64,000 bases of DNA, from positions 682,001 to 746,000 of the forward strand of contig NZ_BMFQ01000001.1 in the NCBI RefSeq assembly GCF_014638915.1, in the 5' to 3' direction. The position numbers were made by a program, and so were the translations under genes. This document shows, one piece after another, positions 17,531 to 50,025 of this stretch (positions within the stretch are counted from its first letter, which is position 1; each line of letters opens with the position of its first letter). The stretch is from Xanthomarina arctica. Its GTDB lineage: Bacteria > Bacteroidota > Bacteroidia > Flavobacteriales > Flavobacteriaceae. The notes beneath the pieces are model-generated. The model made no database searches, was not told the origin of the DNA, and worked only from the letters and a program-made list of their open reading frames with translations.

Positions 17531-19198
17531 TTATTCCTTGTCATAAAAATGTGTTGCATCTTTTAGAAGGAGATTTAGTATTTCTTTTTCTTTTTTAATG
17601 CGAGTAGCATCCCAATTTAAGTACTGAGTACAATCTTTAATTACAGCATTTTTAAATTTTGAAATACTGGAAATATTAAAATACAATCTTCCAGTTCGTC
17701 TTACAAAAAAATCGGATAGGCTATTAACCATTTCAAAGTGAATACCATACCATAATTCCGCTCTTATTAGGCGTAACTCAGCATTTTTATTCGTAAAAGA
17801 CTGCATTTTTTTGAGGATAATATCTGTTTGTTTCCCGTAAGTTGAGGTTAAATACCAAGAAAAATAAGCGTCATTAATTCCTGCTTTCTTAAGTTTTTGC
17901 TGTAATTTTTTCTGATAGGTTTTTACATCTTTAGATGATATTATCTCTTGTGTAGTAAGCGCAATTTTTTCAGTATATGATTCTTTAAATTTTGAGGCTT
18001 GTTTTGTCGTCATCGTTTTTATAACGACATCAATAACGCGATGTGCCATTTTTCTATAACCAGTTAATTTTCCTCCCGCAATAGAAATTAAGCCACTATC
18101 AGAAATAAATATTTCATCTTTTCTAGATAATTCTGAAGGATCTTTTTCGGCTTCATGAATTAATGGTCTCAATCCCGCCCAATTCGATTCTATATCATTT
18201 TCGTGTAAATTAATTTTTGGAAAAGCAGCATTAACGGCCTCTAGCAAATAGTTAATATCAGCTTTAGTGGTGACCACATGTTCTAAATCACCAAAATAAT
18301 CGGTATCTGTGGTCCCTACATAAGTAACGCGACCTCTAGGAATGGCGAAAATCATACGGCCATCAGCTACATCAAAATAAACCGATTGTTTTAAAGGAAA
18401 TTTTTCAAATGGAAAAACAATGTGCACACCTTTCGTTAGATGTAAATGTTTGTTGTTTCTGGAGGCATCTTTTTCACGCAATACATCTACCCAAGGCCCA
18501 GTGGCCGAAACAAAATTTCTAGATGTAATGTTTATAATTTCTTCTGAATTGTGATCAAGACATGCAACACTTTTAATTTTTTTTCTAGTATTGTAGTTAA
18601 AAGTCTGCATTTCGCAATAATTAAGAATCGTAGCTCCAAATTCGGAAGCTTTTTTAAGTAATTCTATAGTAAGTCGTGCATCGTCTGTTCTGTATTCGGA
18701 ATAATATCCACTCCCAAGAATTGTTTTAGCATCCAATAAGGGCTCTTTTTCTAGGGTTTCGGTTTTATTTAGCATTTTCCTCCTGTCGTCACCTTCAACA
18801 CTTGCCAATAAATCGTAAACTTTTAATCCAATGGATGTCATCATTTTCCCGTAAGTACCACCTTCAACAAGAGGCAAAAGCATTTTTTCTGGTATGACTA
18901 AATGTGGTGCTAATTTATGAACAATGGCGCGTTCTCTGCCGGATTCCTTTACTAAACCAATTTCTAATTGTTTTAAATAGCGCAAGCCGCCATGAATTAG
19001 TTTTGTAGATTTATTACTTGTCCCAGAAGCAAAATCATTTTTTTCAATCAAGCAGGTTTTCATGCCACGTGAAGCAGCATCAAGTGCAATTCCTGCTCCT
19101 GTAACTCCTCCACCAATAATAACAAGGTCAAATTTCTGGGTAGTAACTTTTTTAATTTGTTTTGCTCTATTTAAGATAGAAAAAGGTTTGGTTTTCAT
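17531..19198 (-). CDS. glpD: Glycerol-3-phosphate dehydrogenase, FAD-dependent
   Basis: 555 residues. It oxidises glycerol 3-phosphate to dihydroxyacetone phosphate and passes electrons to quinone at the inner membrane. The FAD-binding VIIGGGVTGAGIALDA is at ~27-42, followed by SNKSTKLIHGGLRYL, GVHIVFP, RMIFAIPRGRVTYVGTTDTDY and SIAGGKLTGYRKMA, all conserved in GlpD; a C-terminal helical domain is present. It starts five bases after the glpK stop, so the two form an operon. Together they channel glycerol into central metabolism and fit the lipid-related genes on the other strand. Confidence 0.95.
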   Translation of the reverse strand: MKTKPFSILNRAKQIKKVTTQKFDLVIIGGGVTGAGIALDAASRGMKTCLIEKNDFASGTSNKSTKLIHGGLRYLKQLEIGLVKESGRERAIVHKLAPHLVIPEKMLLPLVEGGTYGKMMTSIGLKVYDLLASVEGDDRRKMLNKTETLEKEPLLDAKTILGSGYYSEYRTDDARLTIELLKKASEFGATILNYCEMQTFNYNTRKKIKSVACLDHNSEEIINITSRNFVSATGPWVDVLREKDASRNNKHLHLTKGVHIVFPFEKFPLKQSVYFDVADGRMIFAIPRGRVTYVGTTDTDYFGDLEHVVTTKADINYLLEAVNAAFPKINLHENDIESNWAGLRPLIHEAEKDPSELSRKDEIFISDSGLISIAGGKLTGYRKMAHRVIDVVIKTMTTKQASKFKESYTEKIALTTQEIISSKDVKTYQKKLQQKLKKAGINDAYFSWYLTSTYGKQTDIILKKMQSFTNKNAELRLIRAELWYGIHFEMVNSLSDFFVRRTGRLYFNISSISKFKNAVIKDCTQYLNWDATRIKKEKEILNLLLKDATHFYDKE

Positions 19199-19203
19199 AT
19201 ATT

Positions 19204-20697
19204 TTATTGGGCATCATTTATTGTTCTGGTTCTTTTTATAGCATCCAACCAACCTGTATATTTTTGTGTTCTAGTTTTTGAATCCATTTTAGGTGAAAAT
19301 ATTCGATCCACTTCACGAATAGTTTCTATATCTTGTTTTGTCCAAATACCAGCTTTTAAACCAGCAAGCATGGCAGCTCCTAAAGCTGTAATTTCTATCA
19401 TTTTTGGTCTATCTACAGGAACATTTAAAAGATCGGATTGAAATTGCATTAGGTAATTATTAGCACTTGCTCCACCATCGACCTTTAACCACGTTAGAGG
19501 TTTCCCGCTATCTTCTTCCATGGCATTTATAACATCTTTTGTTTGATAAGCTAACGATTCTAGAGTTGCTTTTATGATTTCGTTTTTACCAATATCTAGT
19601 GTAATTCCATAGATGGTACCTTTAGCGTTAGCATCCCAATAAGGTGCTCCTAATCCAGCAAAAGCAGGAACCACATATAAATCTTTTAAAGGGGGAATGC
19701 TATTGCAAATGTGTTCGGTTTCTTTTACTTGGTTAATTAATTGCATTTTATCACGTAACCACTGGATGGATGCACCACCAATAAAAATACTGCCTTCTAA
19801 AATATAATTTTTTGGTTGATCTGGTAAGCTACAAGCTAAAGTTGTAATTAAACCGTTTTTTGATGATACAAAATCTTTTCCATTGTTTAAAAGTATGAAA
19901 CAACCTGTTCCGTAGGTGTTTTTTGCAATCCCTTCTGCAGAACCACCTTGCCCAAACAATGCTGCTTGTTGGTCTCCTGCTACACCACAAATAGGAATAT
20001 CTATGTTTTTATATTGTACATGACCAAAACTAGAGGAAGATGTTTTTACTTCTGGTAACATCGATTTTGGAATGTCTAAAGCGGATAATAAAGTATCGTC
20101 CCATTTTAAATCTTTGATGTTATACAACATGGTTCGCGAGGCATTGGTATGATCTGTATAATGATGCTTACCGTTTGTAAACTTATAAATTAACCAACTA
20201 TCGATGGTTCCAAACAGAAGTTTTCCAGCATCTGCTTTTTCCCGCGCACCTTTCACATGATCTAAAATCCATTTTAATTTGGTTCCCGAAAAATAGGCGT
20301 CAATGACCAATCCAGTATGCTCTCGAACATAAGTTCCTAAGCCATCATTTTTTAAAGTCTTACAAATATCTTTTGTTCTATTATCTAACCAAACAATAGC
20401 ATTATAAATAGGTATGCCAGTTTCCTTATCCCAAACCACCGTAGTTTCTCTTTGATTAGTAATACCTATGGTAGCAATATCTTTTGAATGGATTCCAGTC
20501 TCTTTTAAAACAGTTTCAAAGGTTTCTTTTTGATCCTGATAAATTTGGTTTGGGTCATGTTCTACCCAACCCGCTTCTGGATAGTGTTGTGTGAGTTCTT
20601 TTTGAGAAATTCCTTGGATATTACCTTGAGTATCAAAGATGATAGTTCTAGTACTGGTGGTACCTTGATCGAAAGCGATTATATATTTTTTATTCAT
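19204..20697 (-). CDS. glpK: Glycerol kinase
   Basis: 497 residues, the standard length. It phosphorylates glycerol with ATP. Motifs: AFDQGTTSTRTIIFD at the N-terminus, GWVEHDP, TNQRETTVVWDKETG, NAIVWLDNRT, and in the C-terminal half AFAGLGAPYWDANAKGTIYG and WLKVDGGASANNYLMQFQ. First gene of the glpK-glpD operon and divergent from the granule/lipid gene block across 190 bases. No glycerol facilitator gene (glpF) is next to it. Confidence 0.97.
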   Translation of the reverse strand: MNKKYIIAFDQGTTSTRTIIFDTQGNIQGISQKELTQHYPEAGWVEHDPNQIYQDQKETFETVLKETGIHSKDIATIGITNQRETTVVWDKETGIPIYNAIVWLDNRTKDICKTLKNDGLGTYVREHTGLVIDAYFSGTKLKWILDHVKGAREKADAGKLLFGTIDSWLIYKFTNGKHHYTDHTNASRTMLYNIKDLKWDDTLLSALDIPKSMLPEVKTSSSSFGHVQYKNIDIPICGVAGDQQAALFGQGGSAEGIAKNTYGTGCFILLNNGKDFVSSKNGLITTLACSLPDQPKNYILEGSIFIGGASIQWLRDKMQLINQVKETEHICNSIPPLKDLYVVPAFAGLGAPYWDANAKGTIYGITLDIGKNEIIKATLESLAYQTKDVINAMEEDSGKPLTWLKVDGGASANNYLMQFQSDLLNVPVDRPKMIEITALGAAMLAGLKAGIWTKQDIETIREVDRIFSPKMDSKTRTQKYTGWLDAIKRTRTINDAQ

Positions 20698-20887
20698 AGA
20701 TGTGCTTTTGAAAAGATCTAATTCTATGGTGGTTTAAAAGACTAGAACATAAAGAACTGAAAATATTCTTTAAATATTAAACTTTCAAAGGAAACTATTT
20801 TTAAATCCGTCATGAGTATTGTTAGGCTATATGAATGCTTAATTTCAAAAAGATTTGTAATTTGTCTGAGATTTAAATTTTAAGATT

Positions 20888-21427
20888 ATGGCTAAAAAAG
20901 CAGATCAAACGGCATCCTTTATGGTTCGGTTTAACCAGATTATTTTTGAAGAAGATGGAGAATCTAAAGTGCAATGGCGTGGAAAAGTATCTCATGTGCA
21001 AGGAGGAGAGGATAAAAGTTTTTCAGATTTCAAAGATGCAGTCGTTTTTATTCAAGAAAAATTGGGAGATTTAACCATGGAAGCCACGAAGGATAAATCG
21101 CCAGAATTACAGGATTCGCTATTAAAAAAGAGTTTTTCTTTATGGAAAACTATGGCGAAAGAAGGACCCAAAGTACTTATGGATACCATTAAAGATCCTA
21201 GAAAGCAAGTCGCTAACTTACAAGATCAAATAAGTTATTTTGGAGAAGATTTAAAAGATAAAGTACACATCGATCAATGGCGAAATGCCTCGAGGTCCGA
21301 TTTTAATACCATTAAAGAGTCCATCAGTACTTTGGCTGATGAAATAAAAAAACTAAATGCTAAAGTAGATGCTATGGCTAAACCTGTTAAAACTACTAAA
21401 ACAACTCGCACTACTAAAAAGAAGTAA
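20888..21427 (+). CDS. Small protein of the granule block, unknown function
   Basis: 179 residues. The N-terminus (SFMVRFNQIIFEEDGESKVQ, then WRGKVSHVQGGEDKSFSDF) resembles a small uncharacterised module with a WRGxVxHVQxGE signature that I recall from scattered proteins in other phyla. The middle and C-terminal part is helical, ending in a Lys/Thr-rich tail (KTTKTTRTTKKK) similar to those of the phasin-like proteins downstream. No signal peptide or membrane helix. The regulator gene follows after seven bases, so they are co-transcribed. Function unknown; granule association or a regulatory partner role is inference from place and tail only. Confidence 0.6.
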   Translation: MAKKADQTASFMVRFNQIIFEEDGESKVQWRGKVSHVQGGEDKSFSDFKDAVVFIQEKLGDLTMEATKDKSPELQDSLLKKSFSLWKTMAKEGPKVLMDTIKDPRKQVANLQDQISYFGEDLKDKVHIDQWRNASRSDFNTIKESISTLADEIKKLNAKVDAMAKPVKTTKTTRTTKKK

Positions 21428-21434
21428 GCCCTAA

Positions 21435-22235
21435 ATGAGCCATCTTAAAAACAAACTACAAGAATTAAAACGGTTTCAGGAAGAAGCGAGCATTCGTATT
21501 CAAACCTTGGGACAGTTTAATTTGTGGCGCGACAATGAAAAGGTGGATTCTAAACAATGGGGAAGAGATAAATCCATACAATTATTACAGTATTTAATAT
21601 CTAATAGGCAGCGTCATGCACTTCATAAAGAAAAAATTATGGATCATCTTTGGGAAGAAGGTGACGATCGTGATTTTAAAGTTGCCATGCATGGTGTTAA
21701 TAAAGTGCTAGAACCAGAAAGACCTTCAAGAACCGAACCTAGTTTTGTAATTAGACAAGGTGTAAGTTATCAATTAGACTTGGAGAAAATCTGGATAGAT
21801 GTCGAAGCCTTAGAACAATATATTATTATAGGGAATGAAGCTTTAGGTGAAGATCAGGTTATTTCTAAACAAGCCTATAAAGCTGCAATTGCTTTATATC
21901 AAGGCGTGTATTTGCCAAATCGCATTTTTGAAGATTGGTCTTCTGAAGAACGCGAAAAAATTCAAGTTTTTATTTTGGGTGCTTATGTTATTCTTGCAGA
22001 AATGTTGCTGAACGAAAATCCTTTAGAAAGCATCCGTTTAGCACAATGTGCCATTGCCATAGATAAAACATGGGAAGATGCCTATCGTTTGCAAATGCAA
22101 GCCTATATTATTAAAGGTAATAGACCACAAGCCATAAAGGCATATCAAAAATGTGCAGATGTTTTAGATAAAGAATATGGTATCGATCCGCTTCCTGCTA
22201 CTAAAAACCTGCTTCAAGAGATAGAGAATATTTAA
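21435..22235 (+). CDS. SARP/BTAD-type transcriptional regulator
   Basis: 266 residues. Residues ~20-105 form an OmpR-like winged helix (IRIQTLGQFNLWRDN, then LLQYLISNRQRHALHKEKIMDHLWEE, FKVAMHGVNKVLEP). Residues ~120-266 are a bacterial transcriptional activator domain of TPR helices (YQGVYLPNRIFEDWSSEERE, EDAYRLQMQAYIIKGNRPQAIKAYQKC). This is the two-domain layout of actinobacterial SARPs, with no extra sensor or ATPase. Such stand-alone proteins are uncommon in Bacteroidota to my knowledge. It precedes the phasin-like genes and is likely to regulate them or the lipid genes. Confidence 0.8.
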   Translation: MSHLKNKLQELKRFQEEASIRIQTLGQFNLWRDNEKVDSKQWGRDKSIQLLQYLISNRQRHALHKEKIMDHLWEEGDDRDFKVAMHGVNKVLEPERPSRTEPSFVIRQGVSYQLDLEKIWIDVEALEQYIIIGNEALGEDQVISKQAYKAAIALYQGVYLPNRIFEDWSSEEREKIQVFILGAYVILAEMLLNENPLESIRLAQCAIAIDKTWEDAYRLQMQAYIIKGNRPQAIKAYQKCADVLDKEYGIDPLPATKNLLQEIENI

Positions 22236-22242
22236 TAGTATT

Positions 22243-22319
22243 CAGTCTCAGTCTCAGTCTCAGTTTTCATTTTCAACTTCAACTTCAACTTCAACTTCAA
22301 CTTCAACTTCAACTTCAAT
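22243..22319. repeat. Two adjacent hexanucleotide microsatellites
   Basis: CAGTCT repeated three times plus CAGTTT (22243-22266), then TTCAAC repeated seven times plus TTCAAT (22272-22319). They fill the gap between the regulator gene and the promoter of the first phasin-like gene. Copy number could vary by slippage and change spacing of upstream elements. Confidence 0.95.
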
Positions 22320-22324
22320 TCCAT

Positions 22325-22360
22325 TTGTAACTCATTTGTAACTGCCTGATAGTATGTTTG
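22325..22360 (+). promoter_or_regulatory. Promoter region of the first phasin-like gene, with a shared upstream motif
   Basis: TATGTTTG (22353-22360) fits the TANNTTTG -7 box. Upstream, ATTTGTAACT occurs twice in direct repeat. The string ACTCATTTGTAACT plus CTGAT and GTATGTTTG is found again, almost unchanged, before the second phasin-like gene. The TTG to -7 distance (14 or 25 bases) is off the usual 17-23, which suggests that an activator is needed. Confidence 0.65.
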
Positions 22361-22401
22361 CACCATAATTAATAAACAAGACATTTAAACTATATCATAT
22401 T

Positions 22402-22674
22402 ATGGCAACTAAAACTAAAAAAACGCAAACAACGCTTATCGATACTACTGCAAAAACAGTTTTAGGATTAGCTACTAAAGCAAACAATTTAGCTTTAAAT
22501 ACTACTGAAAAAGTAGCGCTAAAATCAATTGATTTAACCGAAAAAGGTTTAGGATTTTCTAGTACTGTAATGAAGAAAGGTTTAAAAGCTTCAGCTAAAA
22601 ATCAAGATTTCGTTTTCAATACCTTAGAAACAGTAAAAGGGAAGGTTGTAAAGTTTCTTCCAAAATTTAAATAA
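22402..22674 (+). CDS. Phasin-like granule protein 1
   Basis: 90 residues, Lys/Thr/Ala-rich, amphipathic helical, no signal peptide. It shares the patterns LALNTTEKVALKSIDL and KNQDFVFNTLETVKGK with the two proteins downstream, showing that the three are paralogous. The composition and QD-hVFDTh-TVKG pattern fit the phasin family, proteins that coat polyhydroxyalkanoate or other storage inclusions. No PHA synthase gene is in the window, so the coated inclusion may be neutral lipid. Assignment is by pattern and context. Confidence 0.6.
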   Translation: MATKTKKTQTTLIDTTAKTVLGLATKANNLALNTTEKVALKSIDLTEKGLGFSSTVMKKGLKASAKNQDFVFNTLETVKGKVVKFLPKFK

Positions 22675-22710
22675 TTTTCCAAAATTAAGGTACGCGTCCT
22701 CAGGTGCAAC

Positions 22711-22739
22711 TCATTTGTAACTCGCTGATTGTATGTTTG
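22711..22739 (+). promoter_or_regulatory. Promoter region of the second phasin-like gene
   Basis: TCATTTGTAACT followed by a -7 box TATGTTTG (22732-22739), 43 bases before the ATG. The 14-base TTG to -7 spacing and the surrounding bases repeat those at 22325-22360, so the two genes should be co-regulated. Confidence 0.65.
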
Positions 22740-22781
22740 TACCAGAATTAAAACAATAATAATACATAACAACAATATATT

Positions 22782-23840
22782 ATGGCAACTACAACAAAAA
22801 AAGCAACTAAGAAAGGTGATAAACCAAGTGTTGCAAAAAAAGTGAATACAAGTTTAATTAATGCATCAATGGCTGCGCTTAGTACAACTGTAGAAAATGG
22901 TGAGAAATGGCAAAAATTAGCTTCTAAATTAATTAAGAAGTCTGAAAAAGTAAGAGAGCAACAAATCAATATGGTTTTTGATACAGCTGAATCTGTAAAA
23001 GGTCAGTTTGCAACTGGAACGGATAGAATGAAAGATTTAGTTGGTTACGATGCTGCATTAGTTGAAAAAGCTAAAAAAATGGCTATTAATAATCCTGTAA
23101 GTAAAAAAATAGTTGGTATTGTAGAAGGTATTACTGAAAAAGCATCTAAAAACCCAATGGTTCAGAAGGCAGAAAAGACTACTGAAGATTTTAAATCTAT
23201 GGGAAAAGCTAAATTTAATGAGTTGAAAGGAGATGTTTTAAAACAAGCTTCAAAAATCGTTAATAAAGCAGAACATAAACTTGAGGACGCTAAAAAAGAG
23301 CTTAAAAAGGATGCAAAAAAAGCAACTAAAAAAGCGGCTAAAACAGATCCTAAGAAAACAACTGAAGCAATCAAAGCTAAAGGGGCAACTAAAGTAAAAG
23401 TGGTAAAAGCTACTACTGCGGCAAAGAAAACTAAAGCAAAAGCAAAAGTTGAAACTAAAGTAGCAAATAAAGTAGTTACCAAAACTCAAGCTAAAAAAGA
23501 AGTAACTAAAAAAGTTGCAAACATTGAAGCAAAAGGTGCGGAAAAAGTAAAAACCGTAAAAGCAGAAGTAAAAGAAACCATTAAGACATCTGCAAAAGAC
23601 GATTTAAAGTTAATTTACGGAGTAGGACCAAAAACCGAAATTACATTTAATAATAACGGAATCAATACCTATACAGATTTAGCAAAAATGGAAGTAGAAC
23701 AGATTGAGGCAATTCTAACAAAAGAAGGAATTACGTTTGGAGCTACAGAAGCTAAAGATTGGAAAAAACAAGCTGAGGTTGCTGTTAAAGATGGTTCTGA
23801 AGGATTGGTTAAATGGGTAGAGAGATATAGAACTGCTTAA
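22782..23840 (+). CDS. Phasin-like protein fused to a histone-H1-like tail and helix-hairpin-helix domain
   Basis: 352 residues in three parts. Residues ~20-140 are phasin-like (NGEKWQKLASKLIKKSEKVREQQ, then INMVFDTAESVKGQ). Residues ~145-275 are a Lys/Ala/Thr-rich low-complexity tract (KKATKKAAKTDPKKTTEAIKA) resembling histone H1 or AlgP tails. The last ~80 residues (DDLKLIYGVGPKTEITFNNN, GINTYTDLAKM, then WKKQAEVAV) form a helix-hairpin-helix domain of the kind annotated as flap-endonuclease-like. The layout recalls PhaF of Pseudomonas, where an H1-like tail ties granules to the nucleoid, but the extra HhH domain is unusual. A DNA-tethering granule protein is inferred. Confidence 0.75.
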   Translation: MATTTKKATKKGDKPSVAKKVNTSLINASMAALSTTVENGEKWQKLASKLIKKSEKVREQQINMVFDTAESVKGQFATGTDRMKDLVGYDAALVEKAKKMAINNPVSKKIVGIVEGITEKASKNPMVQKAEKTTEDFKSMGKAKFNELKGDVLKQASKIVNKAEHKLEDAKKELKKDAKKATKKAAKTDPKKTTEAIKAKGATKVKVVKATTAAKKTKAKAKVETKVANKVVTKTQAKKEVTKKVANIEAKGAEKVKTVKAEVKETIKTSAKDDLKLIYGVGPKTEITFNNNGINTYTDLAKMEVEQIEAILTKEGITFGATEAKDWKKQAEVAVKDGSEGLVKWVERYRTA

Positions 23841-23866
23841 TTAATAACATTAAATATTAATTTATT

Positions 23867-24157
23867 ATGGACACAAAAAAATCAATGCTAGATGCGCCAA
23901 AGAAAATGGTATTTAAAGCACTAGATAAAACAAAAAGCACATTAAAATCTGCAAATGGTTTCGCTCTTAATACAACTGAAGAGGTTGTTACTGAAGGAAT
24001 AATTGTTGCAGAGCAGTGGCAAACTGTTGCTAATAAAGCATTAAATGATGGTTTAAAATTAGCTGCAACACAACAAGACATTGTTTTTGATGCCTTAACA
24101 GGAATGAAAAAACATGTATTACTAAGTAAAAAAAGGTTTACTAAGCTTATAGCATAG
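23867..24157 (+). CDS. Phasin-like granule protein 3
   Basis: 96 residues, helical, with NTTEEVVTEGIIVAEQWQTVANKAL and QQDIVFDALTGMKKH, matching the other two phasin-like proteins. It lies 26 bases after the HhH fusion gene, so it is probably co-transcribed, and a strong terminator follows 33 bases after its stop. It lacks the Lys/Ala tail. Likely a surface protein of the same inclusion. Confidence 0.6.
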   Translation: MDTKKSMLDAPKKMVFKALDKTKSTLKSANGFALNTTEEVVTEGIIVAEQWQTVANKALNDGLKLAATQQDIVFDALTGMKKHVLLSKKRFTKLIA

Positions 24158-24190
24158 TTTAAAGTTTTGATTATTATAGTTGGTTAGTTA

Positions 24191-24221: not shown

Positions 24222-24281
24222 GTTTTAGAGATATTAGTTTTAGCCAAAACGTTTTGTATTTTTAGGACAAATATTTTGGTT

Positions 24282-24932
24282 GTGGCAAAGAAAAAGAAAA
24301 TATCAGTTTCAGACATTATAACATTTTATATGGATTACGTGGTTGAACATCAAAGTAAGCCAGAATCGGTTGAAGACTTTTCCTTACTTCACCAATTTGA
24401 TGATGTTATATTCTATGAGCATTTTACCTCGTTTAAAGATTTAGAAAAAACCATCTATAATGTGCTTTTTGAAAATTCGTTAGTTGTTTTAATGCAAAGT
24501 CCGGAATATCATAGTTTCAGTAAAAAAGACAAATTACTGAGTTTGTATTATACCTTTTTTGAAAACCTTTCTCTAAATCGAGAATATGTTGAAGTTTCTT
24601 TAAAAGGTTTTGAAAATCAGCTCAAAGCACTTTCAGTTTTTTCAAAATTAAAGCGCAGTTTTTCTGCTTATATTGAGGAATTAGATTTAGAAACATTCAA
24701 TTTGAATATTGATAGTATTGAAACACTTCAGAAGAAAACCATTAAAGAATCTGCTTGGGTACAATTTTTATTTACAATGAAATTCTGGTTGGATGATACC
24801 TCTGAAGCTTTCGAAAAAACAGATATTTTTATTGAAAAATCTCTAAACACTAGTTTCGAATTACTAGAAACCAAAACATTGCATAATATTATTGATCTAG
24901 CAAAGTTCTTATATAAAGAGAAAGTAAAATAG
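24282..24932 (+). CDS. TetR-like regulator with a degenerate N-terminal HTH
   Basis: About 217 residues from the GTG at 24282 (TTG at 24276 is an alternative). The frame opens inside the preceding terminator, which supports the later start. The N-terminus (ISVSDIITFYMDYVVEHQ ... FDDVIFYEHFTSFKDLEKTIYNVL) keeps the lY-hFxSKxdLe signature that closes the TetR HTH, although the HTH itself is poorly conserved. The rest is an all-helical ligand-binding-like domain. It lies directly before the AarF-family gene. It may respond to an acyl-CoA or lipid ligand, by analogy with other TetR proteins at lipid loci; this is inference. Confidence 0.65.
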   Translation: MAKKKKISVSDIITFYMDYVVEHQSKPESVEDFSLLHQFDDVIFYEHFTSFKDLEKTIYNVLFENSLVVLMQSPEYHSFSKKDKLLSLYYTFFENLSLNREYVEVSLKGFENQLKALSVFSKLKRSFSAYIEELDLETFNLNIDSIETLQKKTIKESAWVQFLFTMKFWLDDTSEAFEKTDIFIEKSLNTSFELLETKTLHNIIDLAKFLYKEKVK

Positions 24933-25026: not shown

Positions 25027-25037
25027 ACGAACATAAA

Positions 25038-26385: not shown

Positions 26386-26430
26386 TAGATGCTATGCGTG
26401 CATAGTATCTATAAAAATAGTGTATCTTGC
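26386..26430 (+). promoter_or_regulatory. 26-bp palindrome with adjacent promoter-like box before the lipid operon
   Basis: The arms TAGATGCTATGC (26386-26397) and GCATAGTATCTA (26400-26411) pair over 12 positions with a single G-T mismatch around GT. Eleven bases downstream, TATCTTGC (26423-26430) resembles the -7 box with one base missing from the T run. The palindrome would overlap the -33 region, the classic position for a repressor such as the TetR-like protein encoded upstream. No T run follows, so a terminator is unlikely. Confidence 0.6.
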
Positions 26431-26536: not shown

Positions 26537-28378
26537 ATGGCAAAGAAAATAGATTTAAAGGACATAGTTCAAGATGCATTCGATGCTTCAATCCAACAGA
26601 TTTCAGGCTATGACGCTGCATTTTTATATGCAGAATCACCAACAAGCCCAATGCATGTTGCTACTTTGAACATTGTAGAAGGTTCTTTAAAATATGAAGA
26701 CTTTAAAGAAATAGTAGCATCCAAACTTCATTTAATTCCAAAATTCAGACAACGCTTACTAAGTGTGCCAATGAATCTGGATTATCCTTATTGGGTAGAC
26801 GACCCTAATTTTGATTTAGACTTACATTTAAATCGCATGAAATTACCAGATCCTTCAAATTGGAAGACTCTAAGAGATTTAACATCCTCATTATTTAGCT
26901 CTCCTTTAGATTTAAGAAGACCTTTATGGTCTGTTCATTTTATTGAAGGTATAGACGAAATTGCACAAGTACCAAAAGGCTCTGTAGCAATCGTTACTAA
27001 AGTACATCATGTTATGATCGATGGTAGCTCTGGAGTTGGTCTTCTTGGCGTTTTGTATGATAGTGATGCAGATGGAAAGAAGAAAAAACGTACCAAACCA
27101 AAGCCATTCAATCCAGAACCCTTACCAGATGAGCTTAGCTTATTGTTGAAAAGCGGGTATGGTTTTTTAAAAAATCCGTTTAAAATTCCGAAGACAGTAA
27201 CCGAAACAGTTTATAGTTTTATAAAAAGTAAAGCGGCTAGCAAATTGAGTATTCAAAAGGAGTTTAGTTCAACAAAATTCCCTGTCCCAATTACCATTTT
27301 TAACGGATCAATTTCTGCAAAAAGAACTTGGGGAACAGCTATTTTATCCTTCGATCGAATTAACTCTCTTCGGAAGGTTATGGGTGGAAGTATTAACGAC
27401 ATGATTCTTGTAATTTGTGCAGGAGCTATTCGTCGTTATTTGATAGAAAGAGAAAAATTGCCATTACATCCTCTAGTGGCTAATGTGCCCATTTCAATTC
27501 GAAATGAAAATAGTTCGGATATGAATAATCAAATTGCTAATATGATGATTCAGTTAGCAACACATATCGAAGACCCATTAGAGCGTCTAGAATATATCCA
27601 AGAGCAAACCATGCTAGGGAAGTCGAGACACAATACTTTAGGTGCAAAAACTTTGGCTAAAATGGCAGATGTTGTGCCTTTTGGTTTAGCAAATTTAGCG
27701 GCTGGTTTATATAGTAAATACAATATTAAAGATTTACACAGACCACCTTTTAACGTCACCATAACCAATGTGCCTGGACCAAGAGGACTTTTGTATTTAA
27801 ACGGTCATAAGGTGGTTTCTATATTTGGTTTAACACCTGTTGTAGATGGTTTTGGACTAATAATCGCTGCTTTTAGTTACAATGGTCAGGTAAGCATTAC
27901 TACAACTTCAGATGCCAAAACAATGCCAGATGCCGATGTGTTTTCAAGATATATTAGAGAATCTGCAAATGAATTAGAAGACCTAATTAAAAATTTAGGA
28001 AAAAGTAAAACATCAAGTAAAGAAGTCAAAAAAGTTAAAAGTAAAAGCACGCCATTTTTTACAGCTTTAAAAAAGTATTTAAAAGATAATCCTAAAGATG
28101 TGAAAGCATATAAAGGCGTATATCAAATGCAAGTAGGTTTGGGAGATACTACAAATGGCTGGGAAATAGATCTTACCAAAAGTGTTGCAACAGTTAAGAA
28201 ATTGAAAAACTTAGATCCAAAATTGTTAGTTGAAATAGAAGACGAAAACCTTTTTGCCTTGTACAAAGGCAAGTTGATTTTAGAAGAATTAAAAATACAA
28301 GGACGAATTAAAATAACAGGAAGTGCGGCAAGTAAAACAAAATTTATGAATTTACTTACGGCATTTTTAGAACGATAA
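26537..28378 (+). CDS. Wax ester synthase/diacylglycerol acyltransferase fused to an SCP2-like domain
   Basis: 613 residues; ordinary WS/DGATs are about 450-490. Residues ~20-490 are the WS/DGAT enzyme: SPTSPMHVATLNIVEG, the active-site HHVMIDG at 157-163, PLDLRRPLWSVHFIEG, NDMILVICAGAIRRYL and the C-terminal NVPGPRG. It transfers fatty acyl groups from acyl-CoA to diacylglycerol or fatty alcohol. Residues ~510-613 resemble an SCP2 sterol-carrier domain (WEIDLTKSVATVKKL, LFALYKGKLILEELKIQGRI), which could bind and hand over lipid substrate. It is the first gene of a tight run with the lipase-like genes; the next gene begins two bases after its stop. Confidence 0.9.
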   Translation: MAKKIDLKDIVQDAFDASIQQISGYDAAFLYAESPTSPMHVATLNIVEGSLKYEDFKEIVASKLHLIPKFRQRLLSVPMNLDYPYWVDDPNFDLDLHLNRMKLPDPSNWKTLRDLTSSLFSSPLDLRRPLWSVHFIEGIDEIAQVPKGSVAIVTKVHHVMIDGSSGVGLLGVLYDSDADGKKKKRTKPKPFNPEPLPDELSLLLKSGYGFLKNPFKIPKTVTETVYSFIKSKAASKLSIQKEFSSTKFPVPITIFNGSISAKRTWGTAILSFDRINSLRKVMGGSINDMILVICAGAIRRYLIEREKLPLHPLVANVPISIRNENSSDMNNQIANMMIQLATHIEDPLERLEYIQEQTMLGKSRHNTLGAKTLAKMADVVPFGLANLAAGLYSKYNIKDLHRPPFNVTITNVPGPRGLLYLNGHKVVSIFGLTPVVDGFGLIIAAFSYNGQVSITTTSDAKTMPDADVFSRYIRESANELEDLIKNLGKSKTSSKEVKKVKSKSTPFFTALKKYLKDNPKDVKAYKGVYQMQVGLGDTTNGWEIDLTKSVATVKKLKNLDPKLLVEIEDENLFALYKGKLILEELKIQGRIKITGSAASKTKFMNLLTAFLER

Positions 28379-28380
28379 TA

Positions 28381-29310
28381 ATGCATTATAACACACATAT
28401 TTTAAAATCTACAGATGGCGAATCCATTTGTTATTATAAATGGGAAGCTAACCCAGAGAAACCTTTTAAGGGCTTAGTTCAAATAGCACATGGACTTGGA
28501 GAGCATGCTGGTAGGTATGATAGTATGGCACATCTTTTTCAGGAAGAAGGTTATTCGGTTTATGCCAACGATCATCGTGCCCATGGTAAAACTGCCGAAA
28601 TAAAACATTTATTTGGGTATTATGATGGTAACGAATATTTTGATGATTGCGTAGAAGACATGCATATGCTATCTGCGCTAATGAAGTCTGAACACCCAAA
28701 GTCTAAATTTATCTTATTTGGACATAGCATGGGATCCCTTTTTAGTAGAAAATATGTGACTAAATACGGAGAAGAATTAGATGCTTTAATCTTATCTGGA
28801 ACAGCAAGTTTTATAAAAGGTTTAGGAAATATTGGTTTAGTTACTGCAACAACAGTCACAGCTTTTCGTGGAAGAGCAAGAGGAAATGAATTTTTGAAAT
28901 CTTTCTTTTTTGGTGAATTCAATAAAAAATTTAAACCAAATAGAACAAAATTCGACTGGATTAGTAGCGATGAAAAGCAAGTGGATCTTTATGCTGAAGA
29001 CCCTTACCGAATTGAAGATTTTTCACTTGGGGTTTTTTTAGATATTATTAAAAACTCTAAAAAGTTAAATAAACCTGAAGCATTTGCAGCCACTCCACAA
29101 GATTTACCAATTCTCATGTTCTCTGGAGATAAAGATCCGGTTGGCGAAATGGGTAAAGGTGTTAGACGCGTTGCAAAACAATATGAAAAGCAAGGAATAA
29201 GTGATTTTACCTTTAATTTATATGAAGGTGGAAGACACGAAATGTTAAACGAAATCAATTCTGAATCTGTTAAGCAAGAGATTATAGGTTGGTTAAATGA
29301 ACGCACATAA
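28381..29310 (+). CDS. Alpha/beta hydrolase, monoacylglycerol-lipase type
   Basis: 309 residues. The family start HGLGEHAGRYDSMAHLF, DHRAHGKT and the nucleophile elbow GHSMGS (Ser at about 117) are those of the monoglyceride-lipase/lysophospholipase group. The catalytic Asp is in MFSGDKDPVG and the His in YEGGRHEML. It would hydrolyse monoacylglycerol or lysolipid in the cytosol (no signal peptide). It is packed two bases after the WS/DGAT gene and 15 before the next hydrolase, so synthesis and breakdown of neutral lipid seem encoded together. Confidence 0.9.
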   Translation: MHYNTHILKSTDGESICYYKWEANPEKPFKGLVQIAHGLGEHAGRYDSMAHLFQEEGYSVYANDHRAHGKTAEIKHLFGYYDGNEYFDDCVEDMHMLSALMKSEHPKSKFILFGHSMGSLFSRKYVTKYGEELDALILSGTASFIKGLGNIGLVTATTVTAFRGRARGNEFLKSFFFGEFNKKFKPNRTKFDWISSDEKQVDLYAEDPYRIEDFSLGVFLDIIKNSKKLNKPEAFAATPQDLPILMFSGDKDPVGEMGKGVRRVAKQYEKQGISDFTFNLYEGGRHEMLNEINSESVKQEIIGWLNERT

Positions 29311-29325
29311 GTTTAAAAATCAATA

Positions 29326-30507
29326 ATGGAAGAGACCCAAATTTTATATCGAATTTTCACGCGTTTAGCAGTTGCTTTAGGTGTTTTAAATGGCCTATCG
29401 TTAAAAGAAGCAAAAAAATTGCTGCTTCAGCAAATTAAAGAACACCCATTTGAAAACGAGATTAAAGTACTCATTAATGCCATTAAAGAAGATGAACATG
29501 AAAGTATTGAGCAACTCTTAGATAAAACCATATTAGTCTGTGAAGAATTAGGTTCCAATCGTAATTATATAACCTTAGAAATTATTTTAGAGCATATAGC
29601 GTCAACCATTTCTAATGATGAAAATCAGGAGGAATATAAATACACAAATTCTATTGTTGAGCGATTCAAAAAAGAAATCACTCTTATCAACAAAAAAATC
29701 CCACTACCACCATTATTTAATATGGTTATGGAAACAAGATCCTTGTTAGAATGGTCTTCAATTTATTGTATTTATCCGTTTATTCCAAAACGTATTAAGG
29801 GAGAAGGAAAACCAGTTTTATTAATTCCCCCATATTTAGGAGATGATTTTTCGACATCATTTGTTAGAAAATATCTACAATCTCTAGGATTTACAACTTA
29901 TAAATGGGAATTAGGATTCAATATGGTAAAAGCACACTATATCCCAAGATTAGAAGAGAAGCTACACGATATTTATCAAAAGCACAACGAGAAAGTAAGT
30001 ATTGTTGGCTGGAGTGGTGGAGGCATATTTGCTAAAATAATGGCGAATAGACATCCAAATCAAGTCGAGCAAATTTTAACTATTGGGTCTCCAATTTGGG
30101 GCGTTATGGATATGAAAACACCTGTTTATGGGTTGCTTGAATTCTTTAGGGGAAAATCTTTAAAGGAACGCAATGAACGCTTTTTAGCAGAATTAGAACC
30201 TATTCCAAAAGTTCCTGTAACCTGCATTTACACAAAAACAGATGGCTTAGTACCTTGGAAACATTGTATGGAAGCTGAAACTTTTAGAAAGGATATAAAA
30301 AATATAGAAGTATTTGGTAGTCATTCCGGAATGGGAGCCAATGCGAGTGTCTTATTGGTTACAGCCAATATGCTAAGTGCTAATATACAAGGCAAAAAAA
30401 TAAGAGATGTTGGATCAAATATTGAACGCTATTTGTATCCTAATTTTTGGAATAAAGCCCGAAAGGCTTTCAAAATAAAAAAGCCAATTGTACAAGTCAT
30501 AAAATAA
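29326..30507 (+). CDS. Second alpha/beta hydrolase of the lipid operon
   Basis: 393 residues. A helical N-terminal part of ~110 residues precedes the hydrolase fold. LLIPPYLGDDFSTSFVRKYL is followed by the nucleophile elbow GWSGGG, the acid residue region CIYTKTDGLVPW and a catalytic His in GSHSGMG. It resembles lipase/esterase proteins with PGAP1-like cores and has no signal peptide. The substrate is unknown; acylglycerol or wax ester fits its position between the monoacylglycerol-lipase gene and the acyltransferase fusion gene (6-base gap). Confidence 0.8.
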   Translation: MEETQILYRIFTRLAVALGVLNGLSLKEAKKLLLQQIKEHPFENEIKVLINAIKEDEHESIEQLLDKTILVCEELGSNRNYITLEIILEHIASTISNDENQEEYKYTNSIVERFKKEITLINKKIPLPPLFNMVMETRSLLEWSSIYCIYPFIPKRIKGEGKPVLLIPPYLGDDFSTSFVRKYLQSLGFTTYKWELGFNMVKAHYIPRLEEKLHDIYQKHNEKVSIVGWSGGGIFAKIMANRHPNQVEQILTIGSPIWGVMDMKTPVYGLLEFFRGKSLKERNERFLAELEPIPKVPVTCIYTKTDGLVPWKHCMEAETFRKDIKNIEVFGSHSGMGANASVLLVTANMLSANIQGKKIRDVGSNIERYLYPNFWNKARKAFKIKKPIVQVIK

Positions 30508-30513
30508 TAAACT

Positions 30514-33500
30514 ATGGATCATATTATTGACCATCATAAATTTCAGCAAGCTTTAAAACAAATTGCAATCGAGCAAGATATGGATCTCGCCGATGTGAAA
30601 AAACAAGGTGCAAATTGTATTAAGGAGTTGTATGCACAACAACATCCTATGGCAAAATTAGTCTCTGTAAAAGGTTTCGATTATATTCTGTCTAGAGCGT
30701 ATAATGATAAAATTGATGTTGATCCAAAAGGTATAAAAAAGCTCATGAAACTCATGCAGAAAAACTCTGTAGCGTTTATCATGACTCATAAAACATATTT
30801 AGATACCTTAGTTTTGATTTCAACATTGGCTCGCTATGGTATGCCAATTCCGTATTCTTTTGGAGGTAGTAATTTGGCCTTTCCCGGTTTAAAACAATTA
30901 GGAAATAATGCAGGCTTAATTTTTATTCGTCGCAGCTTTAAAGACGATTTAATTTATAAAGCAGCTCTACGTCATTATATTTCTACAATCATTGATAAAG
31001 GAGATCATTTAACATGGAATATTGAAGGCACGCGTTCTAGAACTGGAAAAATAATTTATCCTCAAATGGGGATTTTAAAATATATTAAAGAAGGCGAATT
31101 ACAGAGTGCAAGATCTATAAAATACGTTCCTGTTTCTATTGTTTACGATTTAATTCCTGATGTCAAAGAAATGACAGAAGAGGGTAAAGGACAAGCTAAA
31201 AAATCAGAAGGTGTAAAAGAAGCTGTTAGTTATATTAAAAAACTAGGCAGCGATTATGGGCGTGTGGCTATTCGTTTTGGAGATCCAGTTGAGTTAGATG
31301 CAGATCAACAAGCTATCATTCCAGATATGGAAGAAGATAGTTATACCGATAAGCATACACTGCCTCGTTTTGCTTTCGAACTCATACATAAAGCTAATGC
31401 CATAACACCAGTGACAACTGTTTCATTGGTATGTCATACTTTGTTAAACGATTTTGCTTTAACCAAAAAAGAAATAGAATTTAAGGTCAATAAGTTAATG
31501 ACCTACATTGATCAAAAACAAGAAGATGTTCTTATTGATCGTGGTAAAAAGATAGGTGTTACCATACAAACTGCTTTAAATTTATTAAAGGGAGCCAGAA
31601 TAGTTCAAAAAAGTAGAGCAGGCCAACGTGCCCAATACAGTTTGGTTTCTACCGAGTATTTACCAGCTACTTATTATGCTAATATGGCGTCAGGTCATTT
31701 ATATCATCAAGCTTTTATAGAAATGGCATTGGTGAAAATTAAGGATGATCATTCCAAAAATAGAATTACCAATTTCTGGGAAGAAATAATGAGGCTCCGG
31801 AACTTATTTAAGTTTGAATTTTTCTATACGAATAAACCTAAATTTAGTAGTGAAATTGAAACAGAATTATTCCGATTTGACAAAAACTGGAGAACTATTT
31901 TAGCAGATCCAAAAGGAGATATTTCTGCCTTATTGAAAAAACAAGATTTATTTGTTTCAAGAGCTATTCTATTATCCTATTTGGAAGCTGATAAAATAGT
32001 TTGCCACACACTAAATAGTTGGGATACGGATGATGAGTTTACAGATGCCGAATTCATTGATTTGGCCATGTTTAAAGGTAAAGAATTGCATTGGCAGTCT
32101 AAGATAAATCGTTTAGATAGCGTCTCGAAACCATTTTTAATTAATGCACTTCGGTTTGCTAAAAACGCGAATCTAATTCCTGTAGAAAGAATTTTGGATT
32201 ACGATGGATTAGAAACCTGGAAAAATCAATTAGACGACTTATCTGAACGCTTATTTTATTTAAAACAAATAGAAGCGATTCAAGATAAAAAAGGGATGAA
32301 ATCCCAACCTATTGAAGAAGGTGTTGTTCCAGATTCTGGTACGGATGAAATTCATGAAGAGGAAGTTATAGAAGAAGGGCCACATATTACGGCATTTTTT
32401 GACATGGATAGAACGTTAATCAACGATTTCTCTGCAAAAAAATTCATGACAACGCGCCTTTTCAGTGGAAAAACAACAACAAAAGAGTATCTAACGCAAT
32501 TTGCTACCGCTTTAATATTTGCATCAGGGAATAGAGATTTTGAAGTGCTAACCAAAATAGCAGCACTTGGTGTAAAAGGAATATCAGAATCGGCATTTTC
32601 CGAATTAGGAGATCAAGTTTTTACCGATTATCTCGAAGAAACCATTTATCCAGAATCTCGTGAGTTAATTAAAAATCACTTAGCAAAAGGGCATAAAGTG
32701 GTCATAATTTCAGCAGCTACCACATATCAAATTGAACCTATCGCAAAAGCATTAGGGATAAAAGATATATATGCTACCGAAATGGAATTGCGTAACGGTA
32801 AATTTACAGGTCGCGTTTCCGAAATGTGTTGGGGAGAAGGTAAAGCCAGAGCAGCACGTAAGTTTGCTAAAAAGAATCATACAGACTTATCAAAAAGTTA
32901 CTTTTATACAGACAGCATCGAGGATTATCCACTCTTAAAAATTGTTGGAAAACCAGTAGCTGTAAATCCAGATCAGAAATTATCTCAAATAGCATTCGAA
33001 AATAATTGGCCAATTTTAAGATTTGAAGAACCTGTTGGAAAGCCTGTAGTTAATGGTTTTAGAACGGCGTTGGCAGCCGCTAGTATTTATCCTTCTGCAT
33101 TAAAAGGCATAATTAGAGGAGCAATGACGTTGTCTAGACAAGAGGCTGCAAATACAACCTTTTCAAGTATTGGAGATTTAGGTTCTAAAATGGCAGGTTT
33201 AGAAATTGCTATAAAAGGAAAGCATAATTTAGAAGAAATGAGACCAGCAGTTTTTTGTTTTAACCACCAAAGTGCCGCGGATTTCTTTATTATAATGAAA
33301 TTAATTCGTCACGATTTTACTGGAATTGCTAAAAAAGAATTGGAAAGAACACCTATAGGTCCAATTTTTACAGCTTTAGGCGCTATTTATGTAGATCGTG
33401 CCAATAAAGAAAAAGCTATTGAAGCCATGCAACCAGCAGTCGAAGCTCTAAAAAATGGAATTTCGGTAGCCATAGCCCCAGAAGGTACAAGAAGTGGAAG

Positions 33501-33744
33501 TAAAACTCTAGGAACCTTTAAAAAAGGCGCTTTTCATTTAGCCATGCAAGCTGGAGTTCCAATAATTCCAATTGTAATCAAAAATGCATATCTGGCCATG
33601 CCTAAAGGATCAAGTATGTTTAAGCCAACCCACATTGAGGTTGTAGTTTTAGATCCTGTAGATACATCGCTTTGGAAATTAAAAAACATCAACAAACATA
33701 TTGAAGAGGTTCGGAACTTATATTTAAATGAATTAGAAAATTAA
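30514..33744 (+). CDS. Three-domain GPAT-HAD-AGPAT fusion for phosphatidate/diacylglycerol synthesis
   Basis: 1076 residues. Domain 1 (~1-450) is a PlsB/GPAT-like glycerol-3-phosphate acyltransferase with HKTYLD (His92-Asp97), FIRRSF, EGTRSRTGK (~171-179) and a helical C-terminal region. Domain 2 (~620-840) is a HAD-IB phosphatase with DMDRTL (Asp630) and TDSIEDYPLL. Domain 3 (~880-1076) is a PlsC-like acyltransferase with NHQSAAD (His918-Asp923), YVDRANKEKA and PEGTRSGSKT. One chain could thus turn G3P into lysophosphatidate, phosphatidate and perhaps diacylglycerol, the substrate of the WS/DGAT encoded upstream. HAD-PlsC fusions are known in mycobacteria; the added N-terminal GPAT is unusual. 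gpsA follows and supplies G3P. Confidence 0.9.
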   Translation: MDHIIDHHKFQQALKQIAIEQDMDLADVKKQGANCIKELYAQQHPMAKLVSVKGFDYILSRAYNDKIDVDPKGIKKLMKLMQKNSVAFIMTHKTYLDTLVLISTLARYGMPIPYSFGGSNLAFPGLKQLGNNAGLIFIRRSFKDDLIYKAALRHYISTIIDKGDHLTWNIEGTRSRTGKIIYPQMGILKYIKEGELQSARSIKYVPVSIVYDLIPDVKEMTEEGKGQAKKSEGVKEAVSYIKKLGSDYGRVAIRFGDPVELDADQQAIIPDMEEDSYTDKHTLPRFAFELIHKANAITPVTTVSLVCHTLLNDFALTKKEIEFKVNKLMTYIDQKQEDVLIDRGKKIGVTIQTALNLLKGARIVQKSRAGQRAQYSLVSTEYLPATYYANMASGHLYHQAFIEMALVKIKDDHSKNRITNFWEEIMRLRNLFKFEFFYTNKPKFSSEIETELFRFDKNWRTILADPKGDISALLKKQDLFVSRAILLSYLEADKIVCHTLNSWDTDDEFTDAEFIDLAMFKGKELHWQSKINRLDSVSKPFLINALRFAKNANLIPVERILDYDGLETWKNQLDDLSERLFYLKQIEAIQDKKGMKSQPIEEGVVPDSGTDEIHEEEVIEEGPHITAFFDMDRTLINDFSAKKFMTTRLFSGKTTTKEYLTQFATALIFASGNRDFEVLTKIAALGVKGISESAFSELGDQVFTDYLEETIYPESRELIKNHLAKGHKVVIISAATTYQIEPIAKALGIKDIYATEMELRNGKFTGRVSEMCWGEGKARAARKFAKKNHTDLSKSYFYTDSIEDYPLLKIVGKPVAVNPDQKLSQIAFENNWPILRFEEPVGKPVVNGFRTALAAASIYPSALKGIIRGAMTLSRQEAANTTFSSIGDLGSKMAGLEIAIKGKHNLEEMRPAVFCFNHQSAADFFIIMKLIRHDFTGIAKKELERTPIGPIFTALGAIYVDRANKEKAIEAMQPAVEALKNGISVAIAPEGTRSGSKTLGTFKKGAFHLAMQAGVPIIPIVIKNAYLAMPKGSSMFKPTHIEVVVLDPVDTSLWKLKNINKHIEEVRNLYLNELEN

Positions 33745-33836
33745 TCCTATGAAACATTCATAACCAAATTTTGAAATTCAAAAAACTGATTATATGAATG
33801 TGACATGTGACTATTGAAAACAATAAAATCAAACAC

Positions 33837-34838
33837 ATGAAACTTAACGTTGGAATTTTAGGTGCTGGATCTTGGGGAACGACTGTTGCGTCCTTAACTG
33901 CAAAAAACAATGATTCTATTTTATGGGCAAGAAATGAAAAAACTGTTCAAGAAATAAATGAAGAACATACAAATAAAAAATATCTTCCTGGGGCCAAGTT
34001 AAATAAGAATTTAAAAGCATCGAGTTCTATTGAAGAAACAGTCAAGAATGCAGACGTTATAGTTGTGGGAATTCCTTCCCAAAATTTCAGGGAAGTGTTG
34101 CGTGCAGCAAAACCTCATATTAGGCCTTGGGTGCCAATTGTAAGTTTATCTAAAGGACTTGAGTTGGACACCAAAATGCGAATGACCCAAATTATAGAAC
34201 AAGAACTTCCAGGCCATCCAGCTGGAGTATTAACAGGTCCAAATTTAGCTAAAGAAATACATGCTGGTCAGGCTGCAGCAGCGGTTATAGCTATGGTAGA
34301 TAAAACTATTGCTAAACAATTGCAAAAAGTATTTAGTACTGGATTATTTAGGGTATATACTAATAATGATGTTATTGGATGTGAGCTTGGTGGCGCTTTA
34401 AAAAATATTATGGCAATTGCCACTGGAATGGGAGATGGCGCAAATGCTGGAGATAACACGAGAGCGGCTTTGATAACTAGAGGTTTATCAGAATTGACTA
34501 GATTAGGAACAGCTATGGGAGGAAGACGTCGAACGTTTTCTGGACTCGCAGGAATGGGAGATTTAGTAGCAACCTGTTCGAGTTCTAAAAGTAGAAATCA
34601 TCATGTGGGTTTTCAAATAGGACAAGGGAAAAATTTAGAACAGATTATTGAAGAAATGGATGAGGTTGCTGAAGGAGTTAAAACGGCAAAAGTGGTTATG
34701 GAATTAGCAAACGATTATAAGGTTGATATGCCAATTTCTAGGGAGGTATATAAAGTGCTTTACGAAGGTAATACGGTTTATGATGCTTTTAGAGGTTTAA
34801 TTAAAATGGAAAGTGGTTCCGAAAAAGAACCAGGATAG
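33837..34838 (+). CDS. gpsA: NAD(P)-dependent glycerol-3-phosphate dehydrogenase
   Basis: 333 residues from the ATG at 33837; a GTG 30 bases earlier is in frame but adds polar residues before the Rossmann fold. NAD(P)-binding GILGAGSWGT is at ~6-15, followed by GPNLAKEIHAG, the catalytic-lysine block GGALKNIMAIATGMGDG, RGLSELTRLG and FSGLAGMGDLVATC. It makes sn-glycerol 3-phosphate from DHAP for lipid synthesis. It is 92 bases after the acyltransferase fusion, with ACATTCATA and TATGAATGT as long-range inverted arms in the gap. Its place at the end of this operon fits supply of backbone to the GPAT domain. Confidence 0.95.
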   Translation: MKLNVGILGAGSWGTTVASLTAKNNDSILWARNEKTVQEINEEHTNKKYLPGAKLNKNLKASSSIEETVKNADVIVVGIPSQNFREVLRAAKPHIRPWVPIVSLSKGLELDTKMRMTQIIEQELPGHPAGVLTGPNLAKEIHAGQAAAAVIAMVDKTIAKQLQKVFSTGLFRVYTNNDVIGCELGGALKNIMAIATGMGDGANAGDNTRAALITRGLSELTRLGTAMGGRRRTFSGLAGMGDLVATCSSSKSRNHHVGFQIGQGKNLEQIIEEMDEVAEGVKTAKVVMELANDYKVDMPISREVYKVLYEGNTVYDAFRGLIKMESGSEKEPG

Positions 34839-50004: not shown

Positions 50005-50025
50005 ATACTATGCACGCATATAATA

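Follow-up and report, generated by a model that had tools for sequence, protein, structure and literature searches.

Relation of the locus to described neutral-lipid systems

Among the closest described systems to the genes analysed here is the actinobacterial triacylglycerol (TAG) cluster. In it Rv2482c (glycerol-3-phosphate acyltransferase, GPAT), Rv2483c (plsC), Rv2484c (TAG synthase) and Rv2485c (LipQ, a carboxylesterase) provide the same enzyme set, according to the accessible text of PMC10699116. In clusters of this type genes for GPAT, HAD-AGPAT (acylglycerol-phosphate acyltransferase), wax ester synthase/diacylglycerol acyltransferase (WS/DGAT) and a hydrolase are adjacent, and we found the same adjacency in the flavobacterium Xanthomarina arctica. 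The DNA analysed, called the window below, is a stretch of 64,000 nucleotides (GCF_014638915.1, contig NZ_BMFQ01000001.1, positions 682,001-746,000). The locus occupies 17531..34838 of the window, and it is likely to be a chromosomal locus for storage of neutral lipid, mainly TAG. In a Mycobacterium paragordonae record the WS/DGAT, hydrolase, HAD-IB and acyltransferase genes lie within about 7.3 kb, the first two on one strand and the last two on the other, with an alcohol dehydrogenase gene between; the X. arctica acyltransferase fusion matches that record in two pieces (31% identity over 94%). In contrast to the actinobacterial cluster, the window has GPAT, HAD and AGPAT in one protein and the enzyme block on one strand, its WS/DGAT (WSD) carries an SCP2 domain, and genes for coat candidates (Pha1-4), a SARP-like regulator, a TetR-type regulator and an ABC1 kinase are linked.

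Within Bacteroidota, Galvan et al. (2023) described SCP2-fused WS/DGATs in the same marine genera with AGPAT or hydrolase genes nearby and termed neutral-lipid accumulation in the phylum unexplored; the accessible text has no Bacteroidota coat genes, regulators, co-occurrence test, promoter boxes or link to polyhydroxyalkanoate (PHA) (PMC10351704). It was the sole directly relevant paper that we found on TAG or wax ester in Bacteroidota. An earlier note on this DNA had held that no organised locus was known from the phylum, which needs qualification: the context of the SCP2-fused WS/DGAT was already published in 2023, whereas the coat and regulator module, the PHA link and the boxes were not found in the published literature searched, most subscription journals lying outside the search. 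A further comparison concerns Pha3, which by description resembles the TadA/HBHA and MLDS droplet proteins of Rhodococcus and Mycobacterium in having a lipid-surface-type module and a Lys/Ala-rich, DNA-binding-like part; unlike them it has an additional helix-hairpin-helix (HHH) domain. A role of TadA/HBHA in droplets is described in the accessible text of PMC10699116.

Conservation and co-occurrence of the genes

The open reading frames (ORFs) of all the genes listed in the earlier note are intact and their families could be assigned by profile scores, so that list stands with its coordinates. For comparison, 65 loci of WSD relatives were taken from one genome scan. All records were named Bacteroidota, and the scan reaches close relatives only, so the counts carry no inference about the enzyme block in other phyla. 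Fifty loci extend more than 6.5 kb past WSD, and the order WSD-abh1-abh2-GPAT/HAD/AGPAT-gpsA was kept in 49 of them when judged by tblastn positions and in 47 when judged by extended ORF ends, L032 and L054 differing only under the second measure. In 48 of the 65 loci Pha1 and WSD lie in one locus stretch and the coat block Pha1-SARP-Pha2/3/4 adjoins the enzyme block, in two arrangements: coat block then enzyme block (order A, 27 loci) or enzyme block first (order B, 21 loci). All 27 order-A loci contain Pha1-4, SARP, TetR, ABC1 and WSD; among the 21 order-B loci TetR was seen in eight and ABC1 in three, most of these stretches ending there. The 17 loci without Pha1 in the available stretch comprise 12 from Saprospiraceae or an unnamed Bacteroidetes metagenome-assembled genome (MAG) and five early-ending flavobacterial contigs; in one Saprospiraceae genome Pha1-SARP-Pha3-Pha4 was found on another contig (L123). 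On the WSD tree (54 rows) a single change between the two orders is enough (100/99 support), and the pairwise distances of five module genes correlate with r 0.78-0.94 (45 loci). Gene order, a check that the earlier note had proposed, is kept across many genera.

Co-occurrence was examined among 299 genomes of the family. PF03007, Pha1 and the GPAT fusion (at E 0) were each found in nine, and for WSD, Pha1 and the full-length fusion these are the identical nine genomes, of eight genera; in one of them (G124) the fusion match stops at residue 855. Two other species of Xanthomarina lack all three genes. The conserved order and the presence of three genes in the same nine of 299 genomes show that the grouping is more than chance. 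In a Polaribacter-centred genus (97 genomes) WSD occurs in 20, in one of them split in two frames, and Pha1 in 19, all 19 also with WSD; G765 has WSD without Pha1. Across a phylum sample of 395 genomes PF03007 matched 21, own genome included, with 24 places listed. Twelve of the 23 places outside the own genome were inspected: 11, judged on length and neighbours (WSD matches of 434-519 aa), have no neighbours matching the window families, and the twelfth (L131) yielded no WSD match. In a plasmid collection Pha1 had no match and the GPAT fusion had two only, both actinobacterial.

Three side observations concern relatives. A MAG named Winogradskyella (L044) falls in the order-B clade and three other Winogradskyella have order A, through transfer or misnaming. 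In G775 (C1:2759699-2760498) the WS/DGAT is split into two open frames with a whole Pha1 nearby, possibly a decaying copy. In Polaribacter filamentus (L045, 1-10000) the storage locus is preceded by three photolyase-type genes.

The enzyme block and its probable product

WSD (26537..28378, on the plus strand like every gene from Pha1 to gpsA) scores 398 bits on TIGR02946, over the curated cut-off of 310, and contains both PF03007 and PF06974, the SCP2 domain forming its C-terminal part (PF02036, 2.4e-7). The active-site motif HHxxxDG is present in all 63 full-length WSD sequences, that of the window included. By family and motif the protein is assigned as a WS/DGAT with predicted acyltransferase activity. 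The next gene, abh1 (28381..29310; PF12146, 3.7e-48), encodes a monoacylglycerol-lipase-like hydrolase whose best solved relative is 5o7g (E 9.7e-38), with the Mycobacterium tuberculosis monoglyceride lipase at 2.8e-17. The product of abh2 (29326..30507), possibly the first lipase, is a serine alpha/beta hydrolase with the motif GWSGGG in 57 of 57 sequences and with S230, D306 and H333 invariant across 39 alignment rows. It was also considered as a disguised PHA synthase and rejected, as the nucleophile is Ser instead of Cys and similarity to true PhaC is confined to 40 columns around the nucleophile (36% probability). The fusion protein (30514..33744, 1076 aa) joins GPAT, HAD-IB phosphatase-like and AGPAT parts (PF19277, PF12710, PF01553); DxDxT occurs in 52 of 52 sequences, a count not confined to the HAD stretch. 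The block ends with gpsA (33807..34838; an ATG at 33837 is also possible), which encodes an NAD(P)H glycerol-3-phosphate dehydrogenase (NF009098, 498.7 bits). Upstream of WSD lies the gene of an ABC1/AarF/UbiB-type atypical kinase (25038..26348; PF03109, E 1.8e-54), with matches to the A-rich loop, HADPHPGN and DFG in all 28 sequences.

Gene content, gene order, co-occurrence, catalytic motifs and conserved boxes are seen in the sequences; we infer the substrate, the droplets and the roles of the HAD domain and the ABC1 kinase. In the fusion, the GPAT and AGPAT domains would convert glycerol-3-phosphate, supplied by GpsA (or GlpK), into phosphatidic acid, and diacylglycerol would come from the HAD domain or from a phosphatase elsewhere. 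WSD would complete TAG with a third acyl group, and lipid at the surface of the droplet would be handled by the SCP2 domain of WSD. The droplet would be coated by Pha1-4, and the fat would be mobilised by abh2 as lipase and abh1 as monoacylglycerol lipase.

Enzymes of the WS/DGAT family make both wax ester and TAG, and wax ester rather than TAG could be the main product if the supply of fatty alcohol were encoded elsewhere. We think this unlikely. The locus has a glycerol-3-phosphate route and, by family assignment of its genes, no fatty-acyl-CoA reductase, so the wax-ester route that the earlier note took to be complete is incomplete there. A genome search for reductases with PF07993 was not discriminating, as 12 of 12 carriers and all 14 control genomes match. 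As far as its genes indicate, wax ester is not supported by the locus.

Plant plastoglobules combine an ABC1 kinase, an acyltransferase and coat proteins, and the locus, with candidates for all three, is reminiscent of them. In a plastoglobule-like body WSD would esterify prenyl alcohols, carotenoids or others, and the ABC1 kinase would control quinone or lipid exchange at the surface; the SCP2 fusion suggests a bulky lipid substrate, which would suit such a body. The GPAT/AGPAT fusion, gpsA and the monoacylglycerol-lipase-like gene point instead to glycerides, and we regard a plastoglobule-like body as very improbable. We give as little credence to an operon for lipid remodelling or acyl recycling that forms no real droplets. 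Both the HAD-AGPAT and the GPAT domains have a place in phospholipid synthesis as well, and two hydrolases are present. However, the GPAT search gave matches in 272 of the 299 family genomes and, beyond the nine, those listed cover the AGPAT or HAD part only; hence, among the matches listed, the housekeeping acyltransferases are separate and the fusion is not the housekeeping route. The linked coat genes, moreover, carry boxes of their own.

Coat candidates and their relatives in PHA operons

The earlier note counted three phasin-like proteins; there are four coat candidates, Pha1 of one type and Pha2, Pha3 and Pha4 of another. Pha1 (20888..21427) consists of a conserved N-terminal domain followed by amphipathic helices and matches no curated family over its cut-off. 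The short Pha2 (22402..22674) and Pha4 (23867..24157) have one module of about 90 aa in common with Pha3 (22782..23840), and a profile made from Pha2 and Pha4 also matches the N-terminal part of Pha3. This profile found matches in 10 of the 11 genomes searched, with 3-4 per genome in the nine flavobacterial ones; of two Saprospiraceae genomes one gave two matches and the other (G341) none. Beyond the module Pha3 has a Lys/Ala-rich stretch and the HHH domain, and it may be a nucleoid tether. At E 0.01 the Pha3 members matched HHH_5 (22/33), apolipoprotein (15/33), phasin (6/33, best E 2.8e-5) and HC2 histone-like (4/33) families; phasin matches were found for one of 44 Pha1 and none of 50 Pha2/4 sequences. 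Median amphipathicity z was 5.5 for the C-terminal part of Pha1 (47 orthologues), 3.3-3.9 for Pha2-4 and 3.0 for the gpsA control.

A Pha1 profile run against the phylum sample found six genomes: the own genome, three of one other family (f19) and two (G517 and G721) with weak matches that we excluded from the argument. In all three f19 genomes (L121, L142 and L143) the gene stands in an operon of the order SARP-Pha1-130 aa-PhaE-PhaC-PhaB-161 aa-PhaA. PhaC of L121 scores 489.7 bits on TIGR01836 (cut-off 365); its PhaE, PhaB and PhaA are best hits, yet below the NCBIfam cut-offs. The regulator heading the L121 operon has 40% identity to the window SARP over 254 columns, and the window Pha1 has 49% identity to the f19 protein over 63 aa of the N-terminal domain. 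These class III PHA operons are like the window in having a SARP, the Pha1 N-terminal domain and a heptamer repeat (in f19 TGTAACY-N4-TGTAACY, before Pha1), but in the place of WSD and the glycerolipid enzymes they have PhaE-PhaC-PhaB-PhaA as core; a divergent WS/DGAT is also present in the f19 genomes. The relatives of SARP and of the Pha1 N-terminal domain in the class III PHA operon of another Bacteroidota family are new here. Because these are true class III PHA operons, the proposed granule-coat role of Pha1 has support beyond composition, and the relatives together with the conserved boxes favour granule-coat proteins, here most likely on TAG.

PF07167 detected no PHA synthase in the own genome (0/1) or in 49 carriers (0/49, drawn from 50 of the 65 loci with L011 left out); many carriers are MAGs whose completeness is not given, and single absences there are weaker than that in the own genome. 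Class III PhaC over the cut-off was found in none of 35 genomes, 19 of which gave weak matches of at most 27 bits against 365. The earlier report that phaC is missing thus holds genome-wide, and with no PHA synthase found elsewhere in the genome its proposal of a coat on TAG or wax droplets gains support for TAG. Neither a PHA synthase nor loss of the gene order in relatives, two of the three outcomes named in that note as refuting, was seen. PHA granules in the carriers were rejected on these searches. A PHA granule locus with its synthase lost or displaced, in which the phasins coat PHA and WSD does something else, would draw on the SARP and Pha1 relatives in the class III operon and on the weak phasin matches of Pha3 members, but the negative searches and the co-occurrence of coat gene and WSD without a synthase already largely refute it, and we rate it the least probable of the alternatives.

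Promoter boxes and regulators

The SARP-like regulator (21435..22235) has a BTAD domain over the cut-off (PF03704, E 4e-15); Trans_reg_C, the OmpR-like DNA-binding domain that precedes BTAD in SARPs, matches at E 8e-4, yet at 19.9 bits against a cut-off of 26.2. Two boxes lie on the plus strand at 22326..22360 and 22705..22739, 76 nucleotides (nt) before Pha2 and 77 nt before Pha3, respectively. Each has two heptamers, TGYAACY-N4-TGYAACY, followed about 10 bases on by TAnnTTTG, which we take to be the Bacteroidota -7 element. With one mismatch allowed the window alone contains two boxes against 0.31 expected, and at least as many turn up in three out of 100 shuffles. The expression TGYAAC-N5-TGYAAC-N6..16-TAnnTT[TG]G was then run over the 65 loci (1.18 Mb). 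It gave 92 copies, all on the strand of the coat genes and none on the opposite strand. In 91 cases Pha2 or Pha3 follows within 450 nt, and none of ten dinucleotide shuffles gave a single copy. Where 1.5 kb or more follows SARP (46 loci), at least one box lies within 2.2 kb in 45 and at least two in 43 (one each in L070 and L016, none in L074). A box precedes both Pha2 and Pha3, as named here, in 33 loci (25/27 of order A and 8/21 of order B), and in 464 kb of the own genome the expression matches only the two at the locus. By eye, paired heptamers can also be seen ahead of Pha1 in each of the three f19 operons, of which L121 alone fits the whole expression, and three such repeats precede Pha3 in L123. 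SARP targets are described as heptamer direct repeats with 4-nt spacers in the accessible text of PMC5930380; the window repeats, present and conserved, are candidate SARP targets. Just upstream of the first box (window 22240-22325) are hexamer tandem repeats (TCTCAG, then TTCAAC), fewer or absent in the relatives compared.

The TetR-type regulator (24282..24932, GTG start assumed) matches PF17931 (TetR_C_23, E 2.5e-38). Its candidate operator is the palindrome CTATGC-NN-GCATAG at 26391..26406, 146 nt before WSD. A search of just the window that allowed up to two mismatches gave three palindromes against 1.28 expected, which is not significant. Across the loci TATGC-NN-GCATA has 32 copies against 0-4 in shuffles: 13 before WSD, 10 before TetR, seven in the glpK-Pha1 gap and two elsewhere. 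It is found in 23 of 27 order-A loci and in none of the 21 order-B loci, where the commonest other palindrome before WSD occurs in six. We infer the direction of regulation and the pairing of factors with boxes: SARP would activate the coat genes through the direct repeats, and TetR would bind the palindrome and probably act through it on storage and other lipid genes.

Further palindrome copies lie near genes that are presumably fabH and etfB, and before a thioesterase gene and a receptor gene that we take to be of TonB type. One, at window 50007-50022 (also in L010 at 21341), lies at the 3' end of a gene like rpmF, and a fabH-accB-accC-like run is found downstream; in the window the palindrome is followed by a hairpin resembling a terminator, which leaves an operator role there unsure. 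Another (L069, 565-580) is near the start of the EtfB-like gene and a divergent transketolase-type (PDH E1 beta-like) gene, the etfB/pdhB-like gap. In the own genome copies stand at C1:852062 and C1:887091 (L150 and L152), 55 nt before the 4HBT thioesterase gene and about 95 nt before the receptor gene.

On the minus strand beside the coat block are glpD (17531..19198; FAD-dependent glycerol-3-phosphate dehydrogenase, Pfam DAO and DAO_C) and glpK (19204..20697; glycerol kinase, TIGR01311, 683 bits). The earlier note listed them among the genes of the locus, but they are loose neighbours. Of the 24 order-A loci whose upstream DNA extends for 3.8 kb or more, 9 have them beside the block; of 21 order-B loci, one does. 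A gene for a Crp/Fnr-type regulator adjoins glpD (window 16480-17196), a possible further input to glycerol use.

Discussion

Several observations weigh against a TAG storage locus with coated droplets. The sole candidate in the locus for the phosphatidate-phosphatase step would be the HAD domain of the fusion, and no gene there is assigned to a dedicated enzyme. The single exception to the enzyme-block order, L052 (Saprospiraceae, with room for the block), has kept WSD and abh2 but no other gene of the block; abh1 is missing as well from L059 and L065, two shorter loci of Saprospiraceae type, and GHSMG is missing from six Saprospiraceae abh1 sequences. The coat block is absent from the available stretch of the 12 Saprospiraceae-type loci. 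None of the four window coat candidates reaches the Pfam phasin cut-off (PF05597; Pha1 has 15.8 bits against a gathering cut-off of 28.8, and Pha2, Pha3 and Pha4 have no listed match), only the helices of Pha1 clear the gpsA control for amphipathicity, and the PHA-operon relatives have only the N-terminal domain in common with Pha1. A TAG storage locus is the reading that we prefer with these points counted.

A broader proposal, on which we are evenly divided, is that Bacteroidota have a core-independent granule chassis of SARP, heptamer box and Pha1-type coat, which in one family would serve granules of PHA and in Flavobacteriaceae droplets of neutral lipid. Coat and control would have been retained through a change of stored polymer, and the same promoter type would switch on both kinds of granule. 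If the storage reading is right, the link between PHA and TAG coat modules makes it possible to test directly if the granule coats of bacteria are core-specific. The genera carrying the locus include the cultured Polaribacter, Lacinutrix, Winogradskyella, Dokdonia and Ulvibacter. If the storage reading is true, a patchy but wide set of marine flavobacteria would have fat reserves, which would be relevant to bloom-and-bust carbon cycling.

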